A stretch of 45,739 nucleotides of DNA, taken from positions 1-45,739 of IMG/VR virus record IMGVR_UViG_3300032820_003134; one strand, written 5' to 3'. The notes beneath the pieces are model-generated. The model searched no databases. It was not told the origin of the DNA and worked only from the letters and a program-made list of their open reading frames with translations. A program made the position numbers and the translations under genes. Positions 109-45,739 of this stretch are shown here, in pieces. Positions within the stretch are counted from its first letter, which is position 1. Every line of letters begins with the position of its first letter. The stretch comes from a virus.

Positions 109-403
109 AGGTTATGACGTCATCGACTTCTTCGATAATAACCCATCCTGCATCCGCCATTTTAGCTGTATTAGTACGAAATATACCACCTGCAAATCTA
201 ACGTTTCTATATGCTTCAAACTGTTCTTCAGCCCATATACGAGTTTCGACTAATGTTGTTGTTCCAATAAGAGTTCGGTCAGTGCTATCTGCATTGTTTG
301 AACCATCCCAACCTAAAACAGATTTTATTTCAGCAAGAGCAGCGTCAGCTGAATCAAAATTCGCTCCATCTTTTATACTAGTAATTTTTTGTTTTATACT
401 CAT
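98..403 (-). CDS. Hypothetical phage protein, 101 aa
   Basis: A complete minus-strand frame of 101 residues beginning MSIKQKITSI. The start at 403 is supported by an AGGAAAG Shine-Dalgarno sequence just upstream and by a TATAAATA late-promoter-like box at 439-432. I recognise no family. The protein is soluble-looking, mildly acidic, has no transmembrane segment or signal peptide, and ends in an acidic stretch (IIEEVDDVITFSH). The promoter type suggests late expression, so a small virion or assembly protein is possible, but that is inference. An overlapping plus-strand frame at 114-422 is its antisense shadow. Confidence 0.7.
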   Translation of the reverse strand: MSIKQKITSIKDGANFDSADAALAEIKSVLGWDGSNNADSTDRTLIGTTTLVETRIWAEEQFEAYRNVRFAGGIFRTNTAKMADAGWVIIEEVDDVITFSH

Positions 404-431
404 TGTCTTTCCTATTATTTAATAGTAGCAG

Positions 432-439
432 TATTTATA
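432..439 (-). promoter_or_regulatory. Late-promoter-like TATAAATA box (minus strand)
   Basis: Read on the minus strand, 439 to 432 is TATAAATA, the consensus recognised by gp55-type late sigma factors in T4. It lies about 29 bases upstream of the ATG at 403, with AGGAAAG between. The partner box at 445-452 points the other way. Confidence 0.55.
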
Positions 440-444
440 GTATT

Positions 445-452
445 TATAAATA
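445..452 (+). promoter_or_regulatory. Late-promoter-like TATAAATA box (plus strand)
   Basis: TATAAATA lies in a nearly symmetric AT stretch, five bases from the opposing minus-strand box. Transcription starting a few bases downstream would leave almost no leader before the ATG at 461. Either the 2OG oxygenase transcript is nearly leaderless or a later start (467 or 500) is used. Confidence 0.45.
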
Positions 453-460
453 TTTGTAAG

Positions 461-1150
461 ATGAGAATGTTAGGCGACAAAGTAAAAAGAAAAGTAGCAA
501 TGGTCCCTGATGAATATATTCTTCCTGTTATTGAACGATATCATAATGCTACAGAACAGGATTTTGTTTCTGGTGAGTATCGAAGCAAACGATATCATAT
601 TTCTAAAGATATTAAAACAATTTTGTTTTGTATCAATGCTCTTGACTGGAAACCAAAAGATAGTTTAGAAGGCAAAGAAGTAATAATGCCTGATCCTCAA
701 ACTACAAATTATTATCCTGAGTGGTATGAATGGGAAGATATCCTTACTCCTCTTTTAGATTGGGTGCAAGATCAATTTTACGGGAAAGGGTTTTTAAATA
801 AATGCATGATTGCTTTAATGAAACCCGATGGAAGAATACCATTGCATTGGGATCAAGACCCGTCATTTACTGTTTCACGAAGATTGCATATACCGTTAGT
901 AACACATCCTAATGTTGATTTTAAAATTGATGGCGAATCATATTATTTGCAAAAACATACATTGTATGAAGTTAATAATTTAAGACCTCATACAGTATAC
1001 AATGGATCTAATATTGTAAGAGCACATTTGATTATGGATTATTATCATCCAAAAAATTTACATAATTTAATTTATGGAACCGATGAGTATGATTTAGAAA
1101 CAGGTATGAGAGATTATTGGCCAGACATAAGCATTAGTTTCTCACACTAA
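461..1150 (+). CDS. Aspartyl/asparaginyl beta-hydroxylase-like 2OG-Fe(II) oxygenase
   Basis: Likely an Fe(II)- and 2-oxoglutarate-dependent dioxygenase of the Asp/Asn beta-hydroxylase type. From the ATG at 461, the iron-binding triad reads H129-x-D131 (in LHWDQDPSF) and H177 (in LRPHTVYN), with the 2-oxoglutarate-binding Arg at 187 (in IVRAHLIMDYY). This spacing fits that family. The frame could extend upstream to 389, but that would overlap the divergent gene and add a hydrophobic stretch before the promoter box, so 461 is preferred; 467 and 500 are also possible. Phages of marine bacteria often carry such oxygenases, whose substrates are generally unknown. The gene converges on, and overlaps by nine bases, the minus-strand gene ending at 1142. 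Confidence 0.8.
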   Translation: MRMLGDKVKRKVAMVPDEYILPVIERYHNATEQDFVSGEYRSKRYHISKDIKTILFCINALDWKPKDSLEGKEVIMPDPQTTNYYPEWYEWEDILTPLLDWVQDQFYGKGFLNKCMIALMKPDGRIPLHWDQDPSFTVSRRLHIPLVTHPNVDFKIDGESYYLQKHTLYEVNNLRPHTVYNGSNIVRAHLIMDYYHPKNLHNLIYGTDEYDLETGMRDYWPDISISFSH

Positions 1151-1939
1151 TTTTTCGTATTGTCCTTCGAGAGTTGAATCTAAAAACTTTACTAATTCAT
1201 TTTTAGCAGTAAGCCATGTAATGTTTAGTACATTAGAATGATTGCATTGTTTTCTTAAACGGGTGTACTGCTGTATTTCTTTATGTATATAATTTTTATA
1301 TTCAGATTTAAGCAACTCATTCCATTGATATACCTTTTTATTAGTATAAAGCCAGTAATCCTCAAATGTCATATTAGGAAATTGTGCATGAAGATATGAT
1401 AATTCTTTATCATAATCAGTTATGTATGCCCGTGGATGTTGCCCATGGAATGCATAGTAATATGGAAATTTAGCAGTAGTTTTTAAATATCTTTCTGCAA
1501 CTTGTGTCGGATCAGAATCGATAAGATTAATAATAATTGCTTCGGGAAAAATAGTTATAAGATAATTTGGATCATCGTGCGTAAGCCACATAAGATATTT
1601 TTCTTTTGGCGGCGTTATTCGTTCCATGCGTTCATTAAACATGCCTTTCCATTCGTTTATATTATTCCAAAATTTTATTGTTCTTTCGCCGATATGAGGA
1701 ACATATAAATTTTTTCCCATTATTCTTTGGAAATGATATGGTGCAATTTTTCTTGGGCCTGCTATAAAATCAGGAGTTGAGCTTTTTAGTTGAGGAGTAT
1801 CCCATGGATTAATACCGTTGTGTTCATTTGAGTACCAATGCACGTTATTGAGACATGCAGTTAGTCTTGCAAGACGATGTCCACCAGCACCGGGATTAGC
1901 CGTTATAAGTAAATAACGGGTTTTGCTCCATTTTAGCAT
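1142..1939 (-). CDS. Unknown protein, possibly sulfotransferase-like, 265 aa
   Basis: A complete frame of 265 residues. The N terminus reads YLLITANPGAGGHRLARL, a strand followed by a Gly-rich turn and helix. This resembles the 5'-phosphosulfate-binding loop of sulfotransferases or a degenerate P-loop, but it lacks the GKS/T of a true Walker A. The middle contains EAIIINLIDSDPTQVAERYLKT, which would suit the 3'-phosphate-binding strand and helix of a sulfotransferase. The C-terminal third is Tyr/Lys/Trp rich and helical. The start at 1939 overlaps the preceding gene by 44 bases and has only a weak purine-rich AAAGAAAGA before it. The sulfotransferase reading is a guess from two short segments; the gene itself is convincing. 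Confidence 0.65.
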   Translation of the reverse strand: MLKWSKTRYLLITANPGAGGHRLARLTACLNNVHWYSNEHNGINPWDTPQLKSSTPDFIAGPRKIAPYHFQRIMGKNLYVPHIGERTIKFWNNINEWKGMFNERMERITPPKEKYLMWLTHDDPNYLITIFPEAIIINLIDSDPTQVAERYLKTTAKFPYYYAFHGQHPRAYITDYDKELSYLHAQFPNMTFEDYWLYTNKKVYQWNELLKSEYKNYIHKEIQQYTRLRKQCNHSNVLNITWLTAKNELVKFLDSTLEGQYEKLV

Positions 1940-2504
1940 TCTTTCTTTTTTCCATATATGTTTTTACATTTACTTGCCATACTGCTTGATCTGTGTAGGA
2001 GACTTTTTGTATTCCTTTATATGTAACTAAACCTAGTTTAGCCATTAATTCTAGTGCTCGATGTGTTCTGCCCATTTTCCCAGACCTATCATACTCTGCA
2101 CTTGTTGTAATAACAAAGTTGTTTTTTAATCCCGCCCATTTCATTGCTGGTAATGCATGACAGTAAAATGGTAGGCTGTTAAAATGATATCGTGACATTG
2201 TGCTAAAAACTTTATTAAATTCTGGAAGTTGTGCCCCGCGAAATAAAATACGATAAGTGTTGTCACTTATTTCTGGTACATATTGGCAACCAGAGATTGA
2301 TATTAATTTACGATTCCAAAATGTGCCCCAAAATGCAACTTCATTAAATTTTAAAGCCTCTGGGCTGCGATTGTTTAACCATCCAAGTTTGTCACATATA
2401 CTACAAAATTCTGTAAGATCGAAATTTTTTGGTATGCGGGTTGTTACTAGTTTATTTTTTTGTAATCCGGCCTTTATATACCATTTTATCAAATTTAAAT
2501 CCAC
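1896..2504 (-). CDS. Putative GNAT-like acetyltransferase or unknown, 202 aa, GTG start
   Basis: A 202-residue frame. The start is a GTG at 2504 preceded by AGGAG six bases upstream, a good Shine-Dalgarno sequence, so the 53-base overlap with the ligase gene appears real. An ATG two bases further upstream is in another frame and stops after three codons. The central region (AFWGTFWNRKLISISGCQYV, then a Glu-rich turn and ILFRGAQLPEF) resembles the beta-strand core of GNAT acyltransferases. I see no unambiguous acetyl-CoA pyrophosphate loop (R/QxxGxG/A). Flanking genes overlap on both sides, implying co-translation with the ANL ligase and the 265-residue protein. The GNAT call is tentative. Confidence 0.65.
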   Translation of the reverse strand: MDLNLIKWYIKAGLQKNKLVTTRIPKNFDLTEFCSICDKLGWLNNRSPEALKFNEVAFWGTFWNRKLISISGCQYVPEISDNTYRILFRGAQLPEFNKVFSTMSRYHFNSLPFYCHALPAMKWAGLKNNFVITTSAEYDRSGKMGRTHRALELMAKLGLVTYKGIQKVSYTDQAVWQVNVKTYMEKRKNAKMEQNPLFTYNG

Positions 2505-3144
2505 ATTTGTCTCCTGTGTTGAACCAGTCGTCGTATACGCATATGTCTCCTTTTACTATAAGTTCATCGTTTATTACATTGTGATCACAATAAAATCTAG
2601 TTCCTAATAATGTTTCGTCATTGTCATCCCACTGTATTGTTTCATGCACTTGATCAACAGTCCGAAACACATGATTAATAGCACAAGGTCCAATTTCAGT
2701 CATGCCCCAATTAGTCATAAAAGTTGCACCATGTTCGACAAACGGAATAATAATTCTTTTGTGAACCGGATCAGATCCACATGTAATCCATAGTCCTGAT
2801 AAATCTATATTCTTAATTGCTTTTGTTTTAAGTAAAAGTTCGCAATGCCCTGGTGTTAAATGTGTATGTGTATAACCGTTAACATCTTTAAAAAATGAAA
2901 AAGCATTAAACGGTATGATATCTACATGAGCACCAATGTCTAAAGCAGGTAGTGTTTGTGCAACTGCTCCTCCAGCATGACCTATTTTGCATACTGTTAA
3001 AATTCTTGATTTAGATGTTATTTCTTGAGAATCGATTGCTGTCTTATTAGCCGCTTTTAACTTTTCCTGTGATTGCCAGATTTCCTTTGAAGGACCTGTA
3101 GTTCCTGAGGTTTTTAAATAAAAACCATCCATACTGATGTTCAT
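2452..3144 (-). CDS. Minimal ANL-superfamily adenylate-forming enzyme (acyl-CoA synthetase-like), 230 aa
   Basis: Carries the core signatures of AMP-forming acyl-CoA synthetases and related ligases, which activate carboxylates as acyl-adenylates. The phosphate-binding loop TSGTTGPSKE is at residues 12-21, the aromatic/Thr-Glu motif NWGMTEIG at 145-152, the ribose-binding motif WFNTGD at 207-212 and the hinge region YKGRI at 223-227. Family members are usually about 450-600 residues. This one starts almost at the phosphate loop and stops four residues after the hinge motif, so the usual N-terminal subdomain of about 150 residues and the mobile C-terminal lid are absent. The motifs are intact and the frame is clean, which argues against simple decay. 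A weak AATAAATA box overlaps the end of the upstream gene. Substrate unknown. Confidence 0.85.
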   Translation of the reverse strand: MNISMDGFYLKTSGTTGPSKEIWQSQEKLKAANKTAIDSQEITSKSRILTVCKIGHAGGAVAQTLPALDIGAHVDIIPFNAFSFFKDVNGYTHTHLTPGHCELLLKTKAIKNIDLSGLWITCGSDPVHKRIIIPFVEHGATFMTNWGMTEIGPCAINHVFRTVDQVHETIQWDDNDETLLGTRFYCDHNVINDELIVKGDICVYDDWFNTGDKCGFKFDKMVYKGRITKK

Positions 3145-3152
3145 TTTACTAT

Positions 3153-3461
3153 TTATTCGTCATCAGTTTCGCGTTGGAATATTTGTTTAATATTTCGCAC
3201 ATCTCGCATTACACTGCTTTCGCGTTCTTCTCTCTCAGTTAATTTATCGAGGAGTGCGTCTTCTTTAGTTGCGTATGTTTTGTGAGCATGTCGATCAAGT
3301 TTACGCATAACAGTTTCGCACCATATAATTTCTGTGGTGTCGATTAATTGTTGTGATGCTTGATCTATAGTGGATAGTCGTATCGGACGCCAAGCAAACC
3401 ATTCATGCCAGTCTGTTAGTCGTTTATACTGTTCTTGTGCAGTTTCTCGTTTCCATCTCAT
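3153..3461 (-). CDS. Hypothetical phage protein, 102 aa
   Basis: A charged 102-residue protein. Its N-terminal part is Trp-rich (LTDWHEWFAWRPIRL) and its C-terminal half is helical and probably coiled (DKLTEREERESSVMRDVRNIKQIF). I recall DWHxWFAWxP-type segments in small conserved proteins of T4-like marine phages but know no function. The start at 3461 has no visible Shine-Dalgarno sequence, and a perfect 28-base palindrome lies six bases upstream, so expression may depend on that structure. It ends eight bases before the ligase gene begins. Confidence 0.7.
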   Translation of the reverse strand: MRWKRETAQEQYKRLTDWHEWFAWRPIRLSTIDQASQQLIDTTEIIWCETVMRKLDRHAHKTYATKEDALLDKLTEREERESSVMRDVRNIKQIFQRETDDE

Positions 3462-3512: not shown

Positions 3513-3680
3513 TTAGTTCTTACTTTTCTTTGTATAGTGTCTTGAGTAGATACCTTTTTCAACCATACGGTCTTCATAGTCTTCGATCTTTTTTACAATT
3601 CTTTTATCGACCCAATGTGCAATCAGTATTAAAGTAACAAATCCTATTCCACATAAACTTAATAATATCGTTTCGTTCAT
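3513..3680 (-). CDS. Small single-pass membrane protein, 55 aa
   Basis: A 55-residue frame beginning MNETILLSLCGIGFVTLILI. Residues 4-22 form one hydrophobic membrane-spanning segment, followed by a strongly basic and charged tail (DKRIVKKIEDYEDRMVEKG) ending KKSKN. The ATG at 3680 overlaps the TGA of the SbmA-like transporter gene as ATGA, a typical translational coupling. It is probably made in step with the transporter and may be a small accessory subunit or regulator of it. No family is recognised. Confidence 0.65.
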   Translation of the reverse strand: MNETILLSLCGIGFVTLILIAHWVDKRIVKKIEDYEDRMVEKGIYSRHYTKKSKN

Positions 3681-4714
3681 TGTCCATACCTCACTAGATT
3701 ATCTTCAAACTCATGTAGACGTTTCCAAATCGATCGTAGTTCAGTAATGGTTGTCCAGTTGTGTAGGAATAATGCAAATCCTCCATGCACTCTACTAAAC
3801 GCATTACTTACTTGTACCATAATACCTAAAGTAATTAATCCAGAGAATAATCCTGGACCCATAATAAGGTAAGGTACAATAATCATGAACTGATCATAGA
3901 ATACAACCCAACAGTCAAAATATCCATAATGAAGATATAGCCTATGATAGTTATAACGAATTCCTGTAAATAATTCGCCTAATGTTTCTGGTTGGGCATA
4001 GTTTGTTTTGTCATCTTCGCCTAGTACTAAATCCTTTCTAAATGCCGCTTCTACTCTTTGGTTGTTATATTCTAAATGCGGTAGTTTCCAACCGACAAAC
4101 CAACTTATTGCCATACCGCCTAGTGATACTATTAATGTTCCCCAAACAAGAGAACCTTCAATATCTCTGATAACTGGTATGTCGACTTTGTCGCTGAAAC
4201 CCCACAAAATAGGAATAAAGGCAATTAGTGTCATTACTGCTCGTACTACTTGCAGTCCTAATGACTCAATAATTCTTGCCCATCTGTTACAGTCTTCTTG
4301 AATACGTTGTGATGCTCCTTCAATTTCTCCATCGACTCCACGCCAACGAGGAATATAACTAAATGTAATAGCTTCGCGCCAACGCAGTCCATATATTCGT
4401 GCAAACCAACCTGTAAAAATGGCAAGTGCGATATACGGAAATACAATTTCTGTAAAAGATACTTGAGCAATTTCGCTATCAAACCCACTTAATGTATACT
4501 GTAAAGAAATCAATTGTGAATATAATTGAGTAATACCTTCTTGTGGGTTGTCTATATAATCTCCTGCTGTTTGCAACAAATTATAAAATCCGCCATACCA
4601 TGTGTTAATGGCCACTGTCATTTGTACTTGTAACCACAATGAACCAATTAGTAGAACTAGACCACCCCAAGCCCATAAGGCCCATTGTCTATTCCACCAA
4701 AATGATTTTAACAT
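3677..4714 (-). CDS. SbmA/BacA-family inner-membrane peptide transporter
   Basis: Clear homologue of SbmA/BacA, the proton-driven inner-membrane importers of antimicrobial peptides, microcins and modified peptides. Diagnostic stretches recalled from E. coli SbmA are conserved: AINTWYGGFYNLLQTA (residues 35-50), EGASQRIQED (132-141), MTLIAFIPIL (161-170), NNQRVEAAFRKDLVLGEDD (217-235) and the C-terminal TTITELRSIWKRLHEFE. There are multiple hydrophobic segments, for example near 13-31, 90-105, 155-173 and 188-208. At 345 residues it lacks roughly the first 65-80 residues of the 406-residue E. coli protein. The start is supported by TAGGAG before the ATG at 4714. It lies downstream of the methyltransferase gene and is coupled to the 55-residue membrane protein. 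The fold assignment is confident; the phage role is unknown. Confidence 0.92.
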   Translation of the reverse strand: MLKSFWWNRQWALWAWGGLVLLIGSLWLQVQMTVAINTWYGGFYNLLQTAGDYIDNPQEGITQLYSQLISLQYTLSGFDSEIAQVSFTEIVFPYIALAIFTGWFARIYGLRWREAITFSYIPRWRGVDGEIEGASQRIQEDCNRWARIIESLGLQVVRAVMTLIAFIPILWGFSDKVDIPVIRDIEGSLVWGTLIVSLGGMAISWFVGWKLPHLEYNNQRVEAAFRKDLVLGEDDKTNYAQPETLGELFTGIRYNYHRLYLHYGYFDCWVVFYDQFMIIVPYLIMGPGLFSGLITLGIMVQVSNAFSRVHGGFALFLHNWTTITELRSIWKRLHEFEDNLVRYGQ

Positions 4715-38848: not shown

Positions 38849-39196
38849 ATGACTACCGATATTGATAAAGCATATGAGTTTGCTAATTTTAGAATAGCAT
38901 TAATGAACCAAAAACATTTGCTTAAAGTGCAAACAGAAGAAAGATTAAATTGTTATATTAATGGCGGAATATTTAAAGCCGAACCTGGTTTTATTGCATT
39001 CATTGGAGATCTAATTAATTCTGGACATAGTAAGTTACCAATCCTTGATGTAAATGATACCCCAGTTATGATTGATGATTTACAAGAGTTTAAAAATTTT
39101 TTGTTATCTTCATATATTGAAGTTGTTTATGATTATTGGAATGATTGGATAAAAATAAAAGACGAAAAAGATTTGGAAAAATTAGCTGATGTCTAA
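38849..39196 (+). CDS. Hypothetical protein, 115 aa, first gene of the glycosyltransferase cassette
   Basis: A 115-residue acidic protein (MTTDIDKAYEFANFRIALMN...). It is predicted mixed alpha/beta, with Tyr/Trp/Asp-rich helices near the C terminus (YIEVVYDYWNDWIKIKDEKD). No family is recognised. AGGGGG six bases before the ATG is a strong Shine-Dalgarno but is buried in a hairpin. The stop overlaps the next gene by eight bases, tying it to the glycosyltransferase-like genes. It could be a structural-operon tail gene or a cassette regulator. Confidence 0.7.
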   Translation: MTTDIDKAYEFANFRIALMNQKHLLKVQTEERLNCYINGGIFKAEPGFIAFIGDLINSGHSKLPILDVNDTPVMIDDLQEFKNFLLSSYIEVVYDYWNDWIKIKDEKDLEKLADV

Positions 39197-39980
39197 AGGC
39201 GTATTAATATTTGCTTTCAATAATGAACAAATAGACTATGAAAAAATTGCTAAATTAAATGCGTTAATGATAAAGTATAATATGGATGTTCCGGTGCATA
39301 TTATTACTGATGCAGGCACTGATGTAGCAATAGGTAAAAGACATTATAAAGATTTCAATCAGGTATTATCTTTTAATAATGGGTTACGATGGAATTCTTT
39401 TGAGTTATCACCATTTGACGAAACTTTAGTACTTGATGCAGATTATTTAATAATGAATGATCGGTTGAATGCAGTATGGGGTAATAAAAGTGAATTAATG
39501 ATTAATACAGATATTGTACCTTTGTTTGCAGGTGAGTTTATTGAAAATAAACGAGTTGATGAATCCGGTATTACAATGGCATGGGCTACAGCAATTTATT
39601 TTAAAAAAACCAAGTTGCCAAAATATTTTTTTAATATTATGAAACATGTATCTGAGAACTATTTGTATTATAGGCAGTTGTATAATTTGTCAGGTGGGTT
39701 GTATAGAAATGATTATGCAGCTAGTATAAGTTTACATATGTTAAATGGTTTCAATGAGGGAGTATCGGATATTTTGCCGTTACCAGTTAATAAGATAGTT
39801 ACTGCAAAACCAGAAGATCAAATTATTAGTTTTCCTTCTGTTAATCAAGTTAAAGTTTTAATAACTAAACCTGAAAAGAATGAGTTTGTAGTTAATTCTA
39901 TAAAAAATACAAATGTGCATTTTCTTAATAAGAAAACTATATTAGAAAATCATGATAGCATAGCAGAGTGGTATCAATGA
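39189..39980 (+). CDS. Glycosyltransferase-like protein (GT-A, DxD), 263 aa
   Basis: The N-terminal strand and helix pattern (GVLIFAFNNEQIDYEKIAKL, then VPVHIITD) leads to LVLDADYLIMND with D83-x-D85, the metal/nucleotide-sugar motif of GT-A glycosyltransferases. The protein resembles the GT8/nucleotide-diphospho-sugar transferase fold. The C-terminal part (YAASISLHMLNGF, later VHFLNKKTILE) fits the family's acceptor side. The stop overlaps the next ATG as ATGA, and the next gene encodes a related protein with the same layout. It likely transfers a sugar to a phage or host surface acceptor; donor and acceptor are unknown. Confidence 0.75.
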   Translation: MSKGVLIFAFNNEQIDYEKIAKLNALMIKYNMDVPVHIITDAGTDVAIGKRHYKDFNQVLSFNNGLRWNSFELSPFDETLVLDADYLIMNDRLNAVWGNKSELMINTDIVPLFAGEFIENKRVDESGITMAWATAIYFKKTKLPKYFFNIMKHVSENYLYYRQLYNLSGGLYRNDYAASISLHMLNGFNEGVSDILPLPVNKIVTAKPEDQIISFPSVNQVKVLITKPEKNEFVVNSIKNTNVHFLNKKTILENHDSIAEWYQ

Positions 39981-40849
39981 GTGATACGAGAAAAGGTTAT
40001 TTTATTATAACTCAAAATAATAAAAAGTATGATTATATACGTATGGCTTATGCTCTTGCATTGAGTATTAAAGTTACGCAAACGGAAGTTAACAATGTTA
40101 GTATTGCATTACCTGGATCAGAAGAACATTTAGTTACAGGCAAACAACGATGGGTATTTGATCATATTGTCGAACTTCCATGGGGCGATGATGCAGAAAA
40201 TGCAGAATGGAAAGTTAATAATAAATGGAAGTATATTCATTGTACTCCGTATAACGAAACAGTTATATTAGATGCTGATATGCTTTTTTTAAATGATTAT
40301 AGTTATTGGTGGGAAATATTACATAGAAAACCGGTGTGGGCAACAACGTGTGTTAGGACATATAGAAATGAAATAGCATTAGATAATTATTATAGAAAAA
40401 CATTTGTTAATAATAAGTTGCCAAATATCTATACAGCATTTATGTATTTTCGTAATGAAAAAATTACTTGGGATCTAGTAAAATTAGTGCAGGAAATTAT
40501 GCAAAATTGGGAAGTTTATTATGCAAAACATTTAGATGCTTCACGACCGACATGGTTAAGTGCCGATGTAGCATATGCTCTTGCAATTAAAATACTTGGA
40601 ATTGAAAATGAATGCACAAGTAATTTAGCAATTCCGTCTTTTGTTCATATGAAAACTCGTATGCAAAATGTTAATAATGCATTAACAGATGAGAATTGGA
40701 CAAAATATTTTCCTTCATATTTTACAGATGATTGTAAACTTAAAATTGGTAATTATCAAATTTTTTATCCATTTCATTATCATGTTAAAGAATGGTTAAC
40801 GGATGATATTGTTAAAAAGTTAGAGGATGCATATGGAAAGAGTAGTTAA
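39977..40849 (+). CDS. Glycosyltransferase-like protein (GT-A, DxD), 290 aa
   Basis: Second member of the same family as its upstream neighbour. The DxD motif is VILDADMLFLND with D99-x-D101. Other recognisable parts are YIRMAYALALSIK near the N terminus, and WLSADVAYALAIKILGI, which parallels NDYAASISLHMLNGF in the upstream protein. The ATG at 39977 in an ATGA overlap with the previous stop is preferred over the in-frame ATG nine bases earlier. The Tyr/Trp/His-rich C terminus ends at a gene that overlaps by 17 bases. The two may act in succession on the same glycan. Confidence 0.75.
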   Translation: MSDTRKGYFIITQNNKKYDYIRMAYALALSIKVTQTEVNNVSIALPGSEEHLVTGKQRWVFDHIVELPWGDDAENAEWKVNNKWKYIHCTPYNETVILDADMLFLNDYSYWWEILHRKPVWATTCVRTYRNEIALDNYYRKTFVNNKLPNIYTAFMYFRNEKITWDLVKLVQEIMQNWEVYYAKHLDASRPTWLSADVAYALAIKILGIENECTSNLAIPSFVHMKTRMQNVNNALTDENWTKYFPSYFTDDCKLKIGNYQIFYPFHYHVKEWLTDDIVKKLEDAYGKSS

Positions 40850-41399
40850 ATTTTACGTTTATTTTAACAGTAAAAATGAATTAGTTTCAGTGTCAGGCAA
40901 TAAAGATGCAACTTCTCATCATCGGTGGGCTATTTTTTCAAGAGGAGAAGTTGAAGGTTTTGTTACTGGGAAAAAAAGGCTGAGTGATTATGTTGTTGTT
41001 GAGGATAGAAAAACTGGTAAAATTATACTTTCTAAAAAGGAATCACATGAGATTGTTGTAAGGACAATTGATAATTTATTGTATAAAGTACCTTCTAATA
41101 ATGATGTATATGATATTAAGATACGGAATAATAAAAGGGAAAAGATTTTGACATTCTTTTTAAGTGATAATATAAAAAATGCTACTGAGAACACTTCGCA
41201 ACTTATTGTAAATGGTATAGTAAAATTGCATTTTTATTTTACAAAAAAAGATGATCCGCATATGCTGAGAAAGCATGTTTCAGTCAATGTAGAAGATATA
41301 TTTCAAAATAATGTAATAACCAATTATACAGAAACCTTAAATAATGTTAGTGTTTTTACAAAAAGAATCTATGAAAATTATTTGTATGAGGAGGTATAA
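40833..41399 (+). CDS. Hypothetical protein in the glycosyltransferase cassette, 188 aa
   Basis: No recognisable family. It is a Lys-rich, beta-rich protein without membrane segments; notable stretches are RVVKFYVYFNSKNELVSVSG and KLHFYFTKKDDPHMLRKHVS. The ATG at 40833 is preferred to the one at 40827 because AGAGG lies six bases before it. It overlaps the upstream glycosyltransferase gene and ends one base into the next gene (TAATG), so it is co-translated with enzymes on both sides. A role as an accessory or acceptor protein for the cassette is a guess from context. Confidence 0.65.
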   Translation: MERVVKFYVYFNSKNELVSVSGNKDATSHHRWAIFSRGEVEGFVTGKKRLSDYVVVEDRKTGKIILSKKESHEIVVRTIDNLLYKVPSNNDVYDIKIRNNKREKILTFFLSDNIKNATENTSQLIVNGIVKLHFYFTKKDDPHMLRKHVSVNVEDIFQNNVITNYTETLNNVSVFTKRIYENYLYEEV

Positions 41400-42304
41400 T
41401 GGCAGAACGTAATTTAAGTGAGTTTGATGTTTTTTATATTAGTTTTGACGAGCCGAACGCTGAAAAAAATTATGCTGATTTAGTTAATAAAATACCATGG
41501 GCACAACGAGTACATGGTGTCAAAGGATTTGATAGTGCTCATAAAGCCGCGGCAACTGCAAGTAAAACAGATCGTTTTATTACTATCGACGGCGATAATA
41601 TTGTTGACGAAAAGTTTTGGGATACAACATTAGAGATAGATCCAGAAGTAAATGAAAGATCTATTTGGAGTTGGAGCAGTAAGAATATTATCAATGGGTT
41701 AGTGTATGGCAACGGTGGAATAAAACTTTGGCCTAAACAACCTACACTTACAATGAAAACACACGAAGCTGCAGAAAATGAAACTGCCGCTATTGATTTT
41801 TGTTGGGATTTAGATTACCAACAGATGAATGATATTTATTGTATTAATTACCCTAATGGTAATCCGTATCAAGCATTCCGTGCAGGTTTCCGTGAGGGTG
41901 TAAAAATGTCATTAGCAGAAGGCCAGAAAGTAAGACCCGAACCTGGTGAATTTGAAAGGATGATTTGGCATAAAAATTACAAAAGATTGCTTATATGGGC
42001 AACAATTGGTGCCGATGTTGAAAACGGTCAGTGGTCAGTATATGGCACACGTCTTGGTTGTAAACTTACTAATTTAGATCCACATTTTAATCATCATAAT
42101 ATAAGAGATTATGATTGGTTTCGAGAGTTTTTTAATACAGAAGTTGGGCCACTTGTTGGCGATGATAATATTCATTTAAAGATTGAAGAACTTGGGGATG
42201 AGTTGAGAGGTAAATTAGGTATGCAGCTCGGTGAGTTAAATGCCCAAGCATCAGCATTTTTTAAGAAAGTTTATGTAAATCCTCCGCGTGTAGGTTCTAA
42301 ATGA
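41399..42304 (+). CDS. Glycosyltransferase-like protein of a paralogous pair (DGD), 301 aa
   Basis: Begins FDVFYISFDEPNAEKNYADL and has FITIDGDNIVD with D64-x-D66, a GT-A-like metal motif following a fold that resembles nucleotide-sugar transferases. Further signature pieces shared with the protein at 43671 are KIPWAQRVHGVKG, LVYGNGGIKLWP, AFRAGFREGVKMS and GADVENGQWSVYG. A strong GAGGAGGT Shine-Dalgarno lies just before the ATG. The next gene, a radical SAM enzyme, overlaps by four bases. Catalytic activity is inferred only from the DxD motif; substrate unknown. Confidence 0.7.
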   Translation: MAERNLSEFDVFYISFDEPNAEKNYADLVNKIPWAQRVHGVKGFDSAHKAAATASKTDRFITIDGDNIVDEKFWDTTLEIDPEVNERSIWSWSSKNIINGLVYGNGGIKLWPKQPTLTMKTHEAAENETAAIDFCWDLDYQQMNDIYCINYPNGNPYQAFRAGFREGVKMSLAEGQKVRPEPGEFERMIWHKNYKRLLIWATIGADVENGQWSVYGTRLGCKLTNLDPHFNHHNIRDYDWFREFFNTEVGPLVGDDNIHLKIEELGDELRGKLGMQLGELNAQASAFFKKVYVNPPRVGSK

Positions 42305-43677
42305 ACGATGCCTTTTTTAATAATGTAACTGATATTAAAAAAAAACTAAATCGAGTTAGCAGTAGTCTTTGTTTGGCTAAATGGTCGCAAGTAACTATAC
42401 ATTTACAAAATGGGCATACACATAGTTGTCATCACCCAGGAACACATAAAGTACCATTAGAGGAATTAGTTAATAATCCTACAGCTTTACATAATACAAA
42501 TTTTAAGAAAGCCCGGCGTAGAGAAATGTTAAATGGAAAACGCCCTAAAGAATGTCAGTATTGCTGGAATGTAGAAGATAGTCCTGGTGAGAATTTTAGT
42601 GATAGGCATTTTAAAAGTGCCGCAACGTGGTCTGAGCCTATGTTTGATGAGATTGTAAATGGTTCATATGATGCTAATCCTAATCCGAGATATCTTGAAG
42701 TTAGTTTCGGTAATGTTTGTAATTTTAAATGTATGTATTGTTATCCTAACATTAGCAGTCAATGGTATGAAGAATCAAAACAATACGGCCCATATCCAAC
42801 AAGTAGAAAATTTGGTAGTTTAGATCATTTAACACATCAAGATAAAACTCCAATACTTGAAAGAGAACATAATCCATATGTTGAAGCATTTTGGAAATGG
42901 TGGCCTGACTTATATAACTCATTACATACATTTAGAATTACCGGCGGTGAGCCATTATTAAACAAAAATACTTTTAAGGTTTTAGAAGAGATTAATAAAA
43001 ATCCACGAAAAGAACTTGAGCTAGCAATAAACACAAATATGTGTGTGCCAGATAAAAACTTTGATGATTTTATTAAACTTATAAAACCTATTTCAGAAGA
43101 GTTAGATGTTGTTTCAGTCTTTACTAGTGTTGAAGCAACTTATCAACGTGCTGAATATATTCGGTATGGTTTAAATTATGAACAGTTCTGGAATAATATT
43201 GATAGGCTGTTAGAGGAAGTGCCTAGACTTTATATTGCTTTTATGTGTACATATAATGCGTTAAGTGTAACAAGTTTTACAGATTTTTTAAAGACAATAT
43301 ATAAAAAGAGAAAGGAGTTAATAATTGATGAAAATCATAATGATTATCCTCAATTAATGGTAAGTATTCCGTATCTTCGTCACCCAGAATTTTTATCTAT
43401 TAAAATGTTAGATGATTCGTTTGAAAAATATATTGCTGAAAGTGTTAGTTATATGAGAAATCATTTAGAGGATGATCAAACATCTGGATTTGTAGGATCT
43501 GAAATGGAGATGATGTCCCGGATTTTAAATTGGTTTCAAGTAAAAAATAATGTTCCAATTGATCGTATTGATTTTGTAAAATATGTTAATGAGTATGATC
43601 GCCGAAAAGGAACAAATTTTTTAAAAACATTTCCAGAGTATGTTAAATTTTATGAGAGGTGTAAAGAATTATGTTAG
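42301..43677 (+). CDS. Radical SAM protein with twitch/SPASM-like N-terminal segment, 458 aa
   Basis: The radical SAM cluster-binding motif CxxxCxxC is C140, C144, C147 (NVCNFKCMYCYPNISSQW), which binds the 4Fe-4S cluster that cleaves S-adenosylmethionine. FRITGGEPLLNKNT is the GGE-type SAM-binding motif. Before the barrel, a Cys/His-rich segment (SCHHPGTHK, then KRPKECQYCWNVEDSPGENF) matches the layout of phage 'twitch domain' radical SAM proteins and could hold part of an auxiliary cluster. These enzymes usually modify peptides, sugars or cofactors; the substrate here is unknown. It sits between the two paralogous DxD proteins, overlapping both, so modification of a sugar or of a common protein acceptor is a reasonable inference. 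Confidence 0.92.
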   Translation: MNDAFFNNVTDIKKKLNRVSSSLCLAKWSQVTIHLQNGHTHSCHHPGTHKVPLEELVNNPTALHNTNFKKARRREMLNGKRPKECQYCWNVEDSPGENFSDRHFKSAATWSEPMFDEIVNGSYDANPNPRYLEVSFGNVCNFKCMYCYPNISSQWYEESKQYGPYPTSRKFGSLDHLTHQDKTPILEREHNPYVEAFWKWWPDLYNSLHTFRITGGEPLLNKNTFKVLEEINKNPRKELELAINTNMCVPDKNFDDFIKLIKPISEELDVVSVFTSVEATYQRAEYIRYGLNYEQFWNNIDRLLEEVPRLYIAFMCTYNALSVTSFTDFLKTIYKKRKELIIDENHNDYPQLMVSIPYLRHPEFLSIKMLDDSFEKYIAESVSYMRNHLEDDQTSGFVGSEMEMMSRILNWFQVKNNVPIDRIDFVKYVNEYDRRKGTNFLKTFPEYVKFYERCKELC

Positions 43678-44396
43678 AAATTTTTCATTTAAGTTATTAT
43701 GAACCGTTTGCAGATGAGACATATCAAGCACTTTGTAAAAAATTTCCATGGGCAAAGAGAGTGTCCGGAGTTAAGGGAATTTTTTATGGGCACAAAGAAT
43801 GTGCAAGACAATCTCTTACAAGTATGTTTTATGTTGTCGATGCTGATGCTATATTGGAAGAGGGTTTTGATTTTTCGTATACACCGCAAGATGATAAATT
43901 CTATTGGAGTAGTGTAAAACAGACAGATTGTATACATGTATGGCGTTGTAAAAATTCTGTAAATGATCTTGTGTATGGGTATGGTGGAGTAAAATTATTC
44001 CCAACTGAGCCAGTTCGTAATGCAACAGATTGGCATATCGATTTTACTACTAGTGTTGCTGGTAAGTTTAAAGCAATGGAAGAAATAAGTAATTCAACAT
44101 ATATTAATTCAGATCCATTTTCAGCATTTAAAAGTGGCTTTAGAGAATGTACAAAACTTGCTTCGAGGGTTATTAAAGATCCTGAAGGATATTATAGTAG
44201 TGAAAATGATCCGCGTATTGTAGAATGGTTAAATGTATGGTGTACTAAAGGTGCAGATCGAGAAAACGGTGAATGGGCTATAACTGGTGCTAAAGCTGGA
44301 AGAACTTATGGCGAAATGCATAAAGGTAACACCGAAGCCCTTGATAAAATTAATGATAGAGATTGGTTGCAAGAACAATATAAACTCTATTGTTGA
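43671..44396 (+). CDS. Glycosyltransferase-like protein of a paralogous pair (DAD), 241 aa
   Basis: A shorter paralogue of the protein encoded at 41399. Aligned blocks are EIFHLSYYEPFADETYQALC, KFPWAKRVSGVKG, FYVVDADAILEEGF (D57-x-D59), LVYGYGGVKLFP, AFKSGFRECTKLA and GADRENGEWAITGAKAG. It lacks about 60 residues found in the larger copy, mainly after the Gly-Gly block and at the C terminus. The start overlaps the radical SAM gene by seven bases. It is the last gene of the cassette; a host-type promoter begins three bases after its stop. Confidence 0.7.
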   Translation: MLEIFHLSYYEPFADETYQALCKKFPWAKRVSGVKGIFYGHKECARQSLTSMFYVVDADAILEEGFDFSYTPQDDKFYWSSVKQTDCIHVWRCKNSVNDLVYGYGGVKLFPTEPVRNATDWHIDFTTSVAGKFKAMEEISNSTYINSDPFSAFKSGFRECTKLASRVIKDPEGYYSSENDPRIVEWLNVWCTKGADRENGEWAITGAKAGRTYGEMHKGNTEALDKINDRDWLQEQYKLYC

Positions 44397-44446: not shown

Positions 44447-45739
44447 ATGGAAGTACATGAAATATTAGATAGATATGAAATGTTATACAGTGACAAGATA
44501 CCTGTATTAAGCGATTTAAGGCGGACAATTATTGATGAGGATCTTAGTAGTATTTTTAGAATTGCTACTAGTGTTTCAATGGATAAGGATGAAGTTGATG
44601 ATTTAAGAAAGTCTGTAATGGAAAAAAACCCACATGCTATGTTTAGAGTTTTTTTGTTTTTTACTGCTCAAGGGTCATTAGGTACTGGACTTATTGATGA
44701 ACTACGTAAAGTATTGAATGAAAAAAATCCTCGGTCTGTTTTTAGAATTTTTGAATATATTGGTATTACATCAGTTGATGATTTACGGAAAGCAATTACA
44801 GAGAAAAATCATCGTTCGGTTTTTAGATTAATGGATCATCTTGGAGCAACTACTGAAGATGATGATCTACGAAAAGCAATTACAGAGAAAAATTATCGAT
44901 CAATATTCCGTGTATTTGATCAATATGAATCATCGGAAAACTTAGATGATCTACGAAAAGCAATTACAGAGAAAAATCATCGATCTATATTTCGTGTGTT
45001 TGAACACCTTGGCCTGTACAATTATCCCGGGTTAGGCCCGGCTATAGACAATTTGCGTAAAGCAATGACAGAGAAAAATTTAAATGCTGTATTTAGAATT
45101 TTTGAAGAGCATAAAGATGCTGACTTGGATGATATTCGTAAAACTATTATAGAAGAAAACTTACATTCATTATTTAGGTTGTTAGAACATTTTCGTAAAA
45201 CTCATAATAATTTAGATATACCGTTGGAAGATTTACGGAAAGCAATTGTTGAAGATAATTTACGTTCATTGTTTAGGCTGATTGAGAATGAAGATACTCT
45301 ACCTGTTGAAGATTTACGAAAAGCAATAGTTGAAGATAATTTGCATTCTTTGTTTAGATTAATTGAACATAGAATTAGTCTTTCAGAGGAGAATACTGAT
45401 TTGCTTAATATATCTATTCTTGTTCGGCAAGCATCTTTAGAAGATAATTTACATGCCTTTTTTAGATTACTTCCTTTAGTAGCAGATATTGTTGAGCACA
45501 CTGAAATACTTGATGATTTGCGTAGAGGAATTGTTGAAGATAATATACATTCACTTTTTCGTGTGTTGTTATATTTTCAGGAGGTTGAGCAACTTCCGTT
45601 ATCGATGCCAGTTGAAGATTTACGGAAAGCTATTCTTGAAGATAATGTGTATTCAATTTTTAGAGTGTTAGCTCGAATTGATTCTGAGAACCGAGAAATG
45701 AATTCATTACGGCAAGCTGTAGTCAATAAAGAGATACGT
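44447..45739 (+). CDS. Tandem-repeat protein, early gene, runs off the right edge
   Basis: An open frame of 431 codons from the ATG at 44447 to the last base, with no stop inside the window. An AGAGGTGA Shine-Dalgarno precedes the start. After a 20-residue lead-in, the protein is at least 14 copies of a 15-residue core, consensus LRKAI-x-E-[KD]-N-x-x-S-x-F-R. Cores start at residues 24, 53, 86, 113, 141, 169, 203, 230, 263, 290, 326, 358, 392 and 421. They are separated by linkers of variable length, so the period is 27-36 residues. The cores are never gapped. They read as amphipathic helices, so an alpha-solenoid or a chain of helical hairpins is plausible. No cysteine, membrane segment or catalytic motif is seen. 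No family is recognised. The strong early promoter implies a role at the start of infection. Confidence 0.85.
   Translation, partial: MEVHEILDRYEMLYSDKIPVLSDLRRTIIDEDLSSIFRIATSVSMDKDEVDDLRKSVMEKNPHAMFRVFLFFTAQGSLGTGLIDELRKVLNEKNPRSVFRIFEYIGITSVDDLRKAITEKNHRSVFRLMDHLGATTEDDDLRKAITEKNYRSIFRVFDQYESSENLDDLRKAITEKNHRSIFRVFEHLGLYNYPGLGPAIDNLRKAMTEKNLNAVFRIFEEHKDADLDDIRKTIIEENLHSLFRLLEHFRKTHNNLDIPLEDLRKAIVEDNLRSLFRLIENEDTLPVEDLRKAIVEDNLHSLFRLIEHRISLSEENTDLLNISILVRQASLEDNLHAFFRLLPLVADIVEHTEILDDLRRGIVEDNIHSLFRVLLYFQEVEQLPLSMPVEDLRKAILEDNVYSIFRVLARIDSENREMNSLRQAVVNKEIR
44861..44985 (+). repeat. Near-identical 41-bp direct repeats inside the repeat gene
   Basis: 44861-44901 and 44945-44985 match at 40 of 41 bases (T versus C at the Tyr/His codon), spaced 84 bases or 28 codons. 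The copy near 44777 is similar but more diverged. Other units in the gene have drifted much further, so this pair looks like a recent duplication or gene-conversion event. Confidence 0.85.

Follow-up and report, generated by a model that had tools for sequence, protein, structure and literature searches.

Enzymes of the ANL superfamily are two-domain proteins in which a lid swings between the half-reactions. The window, that is, the whole stretch of DNA analysed here (45,739 nt), is a 45.7-kb viral fragment with tail- and baseplate-type genes that encodes a 230-residue protein carrying the central ANL motifs, here called mini-ANL (Table 1). Its small size raises the question of whether it is what is left of a larger enzyme, one part of a split enzyme or an enzyme in its own right. 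The first 1000 residues of the 3883-aa ORF of the window show ∼30% identity to PA5oct-like Pseudomonas jumbo phages, and no tRNA genes were found in the window.

Table 1. Positions of the mini-ANL gene, its neighbours and other features of the window.
Feature	Position	Strand	Length	Remarks
Aspartyl/asparaginyl beta-hydroxylase-like protein	389-1150	+		PF05118, E = 1.1e-9; convergent with the cassette
Third cassette gene, weakly sulfotransferase-like	1142-1939	-	265 aa	Weak Pfam matches in relatives
Conserved partner with a GNAT fold, canonical acetyl-CoA motif absent	1896-2504	-	202 aa	Start uncertain: GTG at 2504 or in-frame TTG at 2492
Mini-ANL core protein, A3 to A8	2452-3144	-	230 aa	ATG start; Pfam, alignment, AlphaFold2
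ORF upstream of mini-ANL	3153-3461	-	102 aa	8-nt gap to the mini-ANL start
SbmA/BacA-type transporter	3677-4714	-		PF05992, E = 1.5e-114; few genes upstream of mini-ANL, same strand
Radical-SAM-like protein (42301-43677) within a run of glycosyltransferase-like genes	39189-44396	+		Read from the sequence alone
Long open-ended ORF of imperfect repeats DLRKAITEKNxRSxFRxxxx	44447-45739	+		

The mini-ANL frame measures 235 aa from stop to stop, so that there is no further in-frame coding upstream. Only 8 nt separate its start from the ORF upstream, and the GTG-start ORF downstream, which encodes the 202-aa neighbour, overlaps it by 53 nt. Frame, gap and overlap together leave no space for a hidden in-frame extension at either terminus, and the clean start and stop and the tight neighbours reported in a preliminary description of the locus were thus confirmed. 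The upstream ORF was not seen in relatives other than L001, a second contig with the same gene, which shows 2 differences in 7729 bases with respect to the window; L001 represents the same virus almost unchanged and gives no independent evidence. Comparison of the mini-ANL with Pfam gave a match to AMP-binding (PF00501; E = 1.8e-14, 53.8 bits, cut-off 29.9) that spans profile positions 170-331 of 384, and the NCBIfam scan gave sub-cut-off matches alone.

A search of IMG/VR found 20 relatives with the window protein alone and 196 with a 12-member profile. The best 80 of these 196 matches formed the viral set, which collapsed at 90% identity to 54 loci; 53 of them contain complete mini-ANL ORFs of 224-283 aa, and the remaining one is cut by the contig end. 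A scan that covered bacteria and archaea (84,980 species) yielded 52 stretches, two of which (L149 and L150) encode ordinary long ANLs. The other 50 carry the short form, in SAR11 (Pelagibacteraceae), OM43 (Methylophilaceae), SAR116, gammaproteobacteria and others, and are nearly all 227-269 aa long, the shorter ones being L144 (181 aa, complete ORF) and L148 (cut by the contig end). A plasmid relative was set aside, being a full-length enzyme of 496 aa. Among isolated phages, the window protein as query gave methylase-like chance matches only (E 0.05 or worse); the search with one divergent mini-ANL member gave two weak matches (21-25%) in faecal phage contigs, and its GNAT, third-gene and DUF6356 relatives as queries gave no match. 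Conservation of length, which the preliminary description had named as support, therefore extends over both sets. Its label of a viral enzyme fits the many phage relatives and is too narrow for a protein that ∼50 bacterial genomes carry in the same short form.

Motifs were placed by alignment to solved ANLs and by column counts over 79 aligned members. The A3 P-loop, with the consensus [ST]SG[ST]TGxPK, reads TSGTTGPSK in the window, where PSK takes the last places; its G14 is present in 79 and its K20 in 73 of the 79 members. H56 of A4 is kept in 76, and A5, WGMTE in the window, conforms to WGM[TS]E in every member, with W146, G147, M148 and E150 invariant. D212 of A7, R226 of A8 and also Q63, H93 and P98 occur throughout, N145 is kept in 77 members, and the A7 Gly is variable. 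All 79 proteins have just 13-53 residues ahead of the A3 glycine and end 1-13 residues beyond R226. Absent from the mini-ANL are the N-terminal subdomain (the A1-A2 region, ∼170 profile positions) and the C-terminal lid (PF13193) with the A10 lysine. It thus has all core ANL motifs, properly spaced, without both flanking domains, as the preliminary description had stated, and at about half the usual ANL size it is, as also proposed there, a new variant of the superfamily. With regard to the substrate, Asp235 of PheA binds the alpha-amino group in amino-acid-activating domains. Our reading of the alignment to solved ANLs places Ala57 of the mini-ANL at this position, and the pocket positions read from the 4CL2 alignment include no alpha-amino-binding Asp. 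Since an equivalent of Asp235 is missing, we propose a non-amino carboxylate, the substrate class to which the pocket alignment points.

In phages, the mini-ANL gene forms a cassette with the gene of a GNAT-fold protein and a weakly sulfotransferase-like gene. The GNAT-fold partner is encoded within 1.5 kb of the mini-ANL in 47 of the 54 viral loci (on the same strand in 45), and a relative of the 265-aa gene lies within the same distance in 39. Gene order varies among the loci, and in L072 and L084 the GNAT-like partner and the third gene are fused in one 417-aa ORF. AlphaFold2 modelled the 202-aa protein with a pLDDT of 89.7, and Foldseek found 42 matches at E ≤ 0.001, all of them acetyltransferases, with E values down to 2.7e-5 and TM of 0.32-0.54. 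Comparison with PDB profiles gave 3t9y (E = 2.9e-4), and Pfam Acetyltransf_1 was found in 6 of 48 partner members (best E 0.0044). The GNAT assignment is based mainly on the predicted fold, which the partner has in common with GNAT acetyltransferases (HP0935, 8iym; 3t9y); unlike these enzymes, it has the acetyl-CoA motif A, [RQ]xxGx[GA], in none of the 48 members. For the third gene, the matches are weak (PF13469 in 4 of 39 members, best 6.4e-5; PF17784 in 3, best 2.5e-4); the protein of the window itself had no Pfam match, and PDB profiles gave none for this gene. Bacterial mini-ANL loci lack GNAT and third gene, except for two phage-like contigs with GNAT, and the GNAT partnership is therefore dispensable for the mini-ANL itself.

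Other genes were seen near the mini-ANL. The gene of DUF6356 (PF19883), a small protein, adjoins it in 28 of the 50 bacterial loci; among the 54 viral loci, 22 have a DUF6356 gene no more than 200 nt away. As a dedicated partner it was rejected: the same phages have more copies elsewhere and the window has none, so that it is not specific to the mini-ANL. In L018/L020 and L019, neighbouring proteins of 389-399 aa were read as a flavin-dependent halogenase and those of 510-683 aa as a B12-binding radical-SAM-like protein. guaB/IMP-dehydrogenase-like genes lie nearby in bacterial and viral contigs alike (L135-L138, with guaA; L086, L088, L096, L098, L119, L145 and L146), and genes that read as tripartite tricarboxylate transporter-like (TctA/TctC type) are found near the cassette in 11 of the 54 viral loci (L049, L053, L058 and others). 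Longer phage ANLs of 380-475 aa are close to the mini-ANL in L057, L058, L087 (in tandem) and L090, as is one cut by the locus end in L033, and some of these appear to possess the lid. A 452-aa ANL in a 306-kb viral record (G010; L152:5540-7127, minus strand) is directly followed by a DUF6356 gene, with an SbcC-like gene alongside.

What might the mini-ANL do? On what we judge to be an even balance of probabilities, it is an intact, selected and self-standing enzyme that forms an acyl-adenylate without a lid, with the GNAT-fold partner taking the acyl group in phages. The core would bind ATP and a non-amino carboxylate and convert them to acyl-AMP; in phages, the activated acyl group would then reach an acceptor via the neighbouring GNAT-fold protein, and the third-gene protein may modify (sulfate) the putative product. 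Against adenylation speaks that the A10 lysine, used by classic ANLs for this step, is missing and that the search of the viral records brought up no separate lid protein that could act in trans. The lid lysine of ANLs serves adenylation as well as thioesterification, and thus the restriction to acyl-adenylates that the preliminary description considered is no automatic consequence of lid loss. Against the GNAT transfer speak the bacterial mini-ANLs, mostly without GNAT and third gene, and the match of the partner to GNAT, which is mostly by fold. A more specific version, in which adenylation proceeds without the N-terminal subdomain or the lid lysine and the GNAT-fold partner replaces lid, CoA and carrier protein in a two-protein machine, is put forward tentatively and is somewhat unlikely to hold.

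The main rival explanation is a non-catalytic protein that binds ATP/AMP or acyl-AMP as a sensor, carrier or regulator, catalysis having been lost along with the lid. The lost A10 lysine, the A3 lysine substituted in 6 of the 79 members and the variable A7 Gly would suit such a protein. However, the A5 Glu, the A7 Asp, the A8 Arg and the family-specific Q63, H93 and N145 (77 of 79) are kept despite great divergence, a conservation that exceeds the obvious need of nucleotide binding and therefore counts against a mere binder, which we consider unlikely.

The predicted fold brings the mini-ANL close to enzymes that make thioesters. Modelled alone with the 79-member alignment, the protein gave a confident AlphaFold2 prediction (pLDDT 94.4, pTM 0.91) with the ANL core alpha/beta fold, so that the possible failure to fold raised in the preliminary description was not seen. 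Foldseek against the PDB returned 530 matches at E ≤ 0.001, with S. aureus MenE at the top (4.2e-14), and the 50 best of the 530 were all ANL-type enzymes. Acyl-CoA ligases and MenE (S. aureus MenE, 3ipl; Nicotiana 4CL2, 5bsw; feruloyl-CoA synthetase, 8wev) have the A3-A8 core, its spacing and the predicted fold in common with the mini-ANL, which differs from them in having no N-terminal subdomain, lid or A10 lysine and shows ∼20% identity (Foldseek). Of reduced size as well is 4gs5, a Dyadobacter ANL with a 350-residue chain (Foldseek 3.5e-11), although it is ∼120 residues longer. By its size, A0A6J5L770 (BFVD), a 214-aa 'AMP-dependent synthetase/ligase' of an uncultured Caudovirales phage known here as a database entry, is likewise a core-only viral ANL (TM 0.77/0.82 and 24% identity to the mini-ANL; Foldseek). 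In the open-access literature searched, we found nothing relevant on minimal or lidless ANLs or on DUF6356. The closest full-length profiles and folds being acyl-CoA ligases and MenE, the mini-ANL might act as an ordinary acyl-CoA (or acyl-carrier) ligase and carry out both half-reactions without a lid, and in SAR11 its gene adjoins that of an enoyl/3-oxoacyl reductase-type SDR. Classical members of the superfamily need the lid and the N-terminal domain to build the tunnel for pantetheine and to adopt the conformation in which the thioester is formed; the mini-ANL has neither of these domains, and we regard this explanation as improbable.

The missing lid could also be supplied in trans, the mini-ANL being one part of a split ANL completed by the 202-aa or the 265-aa neighbour. 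Close gene linkage would agree with this arrangement, for which the preliminary description had suggested the 202-aa protein as a possible partner. That protein, however, has a predicted GNAT fold, and the short form exists in bacteria without these neighbours. We searched PF13193 in 12 viral records of up to 383 kb. Neither the window nor 11 of the 12 records, the 383-kb one included, gave a match; the sole match lies inside a separate 470-aa ANL (record G075; L151). A control search recovered the family from 12 of 14 known genomes. PF00501 detected the mini-ANL in 11 of the 12 records and had no other match in 8 of these. The model is less than fully sensitive, since it missed record G076, in which the mini-ANL is present by its own profile. 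With no PF13193 in 11 of the 12 records, a phage-encoded trans-acting lid is unlikely within profile sensitivity and record completeness, and a split enzyme with either neighbour is very improbable.

There remains the view that the gene is what truncation or decay has left of a full-length ANL gene. For the closest mini-ANL pairs, dN/dS was ∼0.1-0.25 (Nei-Gojobori; values at high divergence were saturated and were left out), and the gene is under purifying selection. Although complete ANLs occur elsewhere in this phage group (452 aa in L152, 470 aa in L151, 380-475 aa in L057, L058, L087 and L090), truncation is rejected, on the sequence evidence, as next to impossible because of this selection and the conserved length, one size in nearly all of the ∼100 phage and bacterial members, the full-length ANLs of the same records being separate genes, as in G010, where the 452-aa ANL and the mini-ANL are both present. 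Full-length homologues in close relatives, named in the preliminary description as a sign of truncation, were not what we found: close relatives are nearly all short. The mini-ANL gene is stable and intact and occurs in numerous uncultured phages of the sea as well as in some of its bacteria.

In the tree, viral and bacterial rows are mixed, and well-supported branches force at least 6 changes. SAR11 rows cluster with the viral loci L044, L054, L077, L081 and L097 (97%) and OM43 rows with L049 and L059 (100%); the window and L028 neighbour a gammaproteobacterial clade (94%, not starred). This mixture, in a tree of uncertain root, suggests that the mini-ANL has been exchanged between phages and hosts, in either direction. 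Many SAR11 copies lie in a common chromosomal context, read as photolyase, SDR, DUF6356, mini-ANL and then FolD- and HemC/HemD-like genes, and are thus no stray phage contigs. In 60 sampled Pelagibacteraceae genomes, the short form was present solely in the query genome and 13 others had long ANLs only, which indicates a patchy distribution.

Taken together, a conserved, selected and widespread form of ∼230 residues turns the smallest adenylating enzyme into a directly testable question, and provides a small scaffold for study. The mini-ANL adds an unrecognised putative activating enzyme to the repertoire of uncultured marine phages and SAR11-group bacteria. If the two-protein proposal is true, it would be a new amide- or ester-forming machine across marine phages, passed between them and their SAR11, OM43 and SAR116 hosts.
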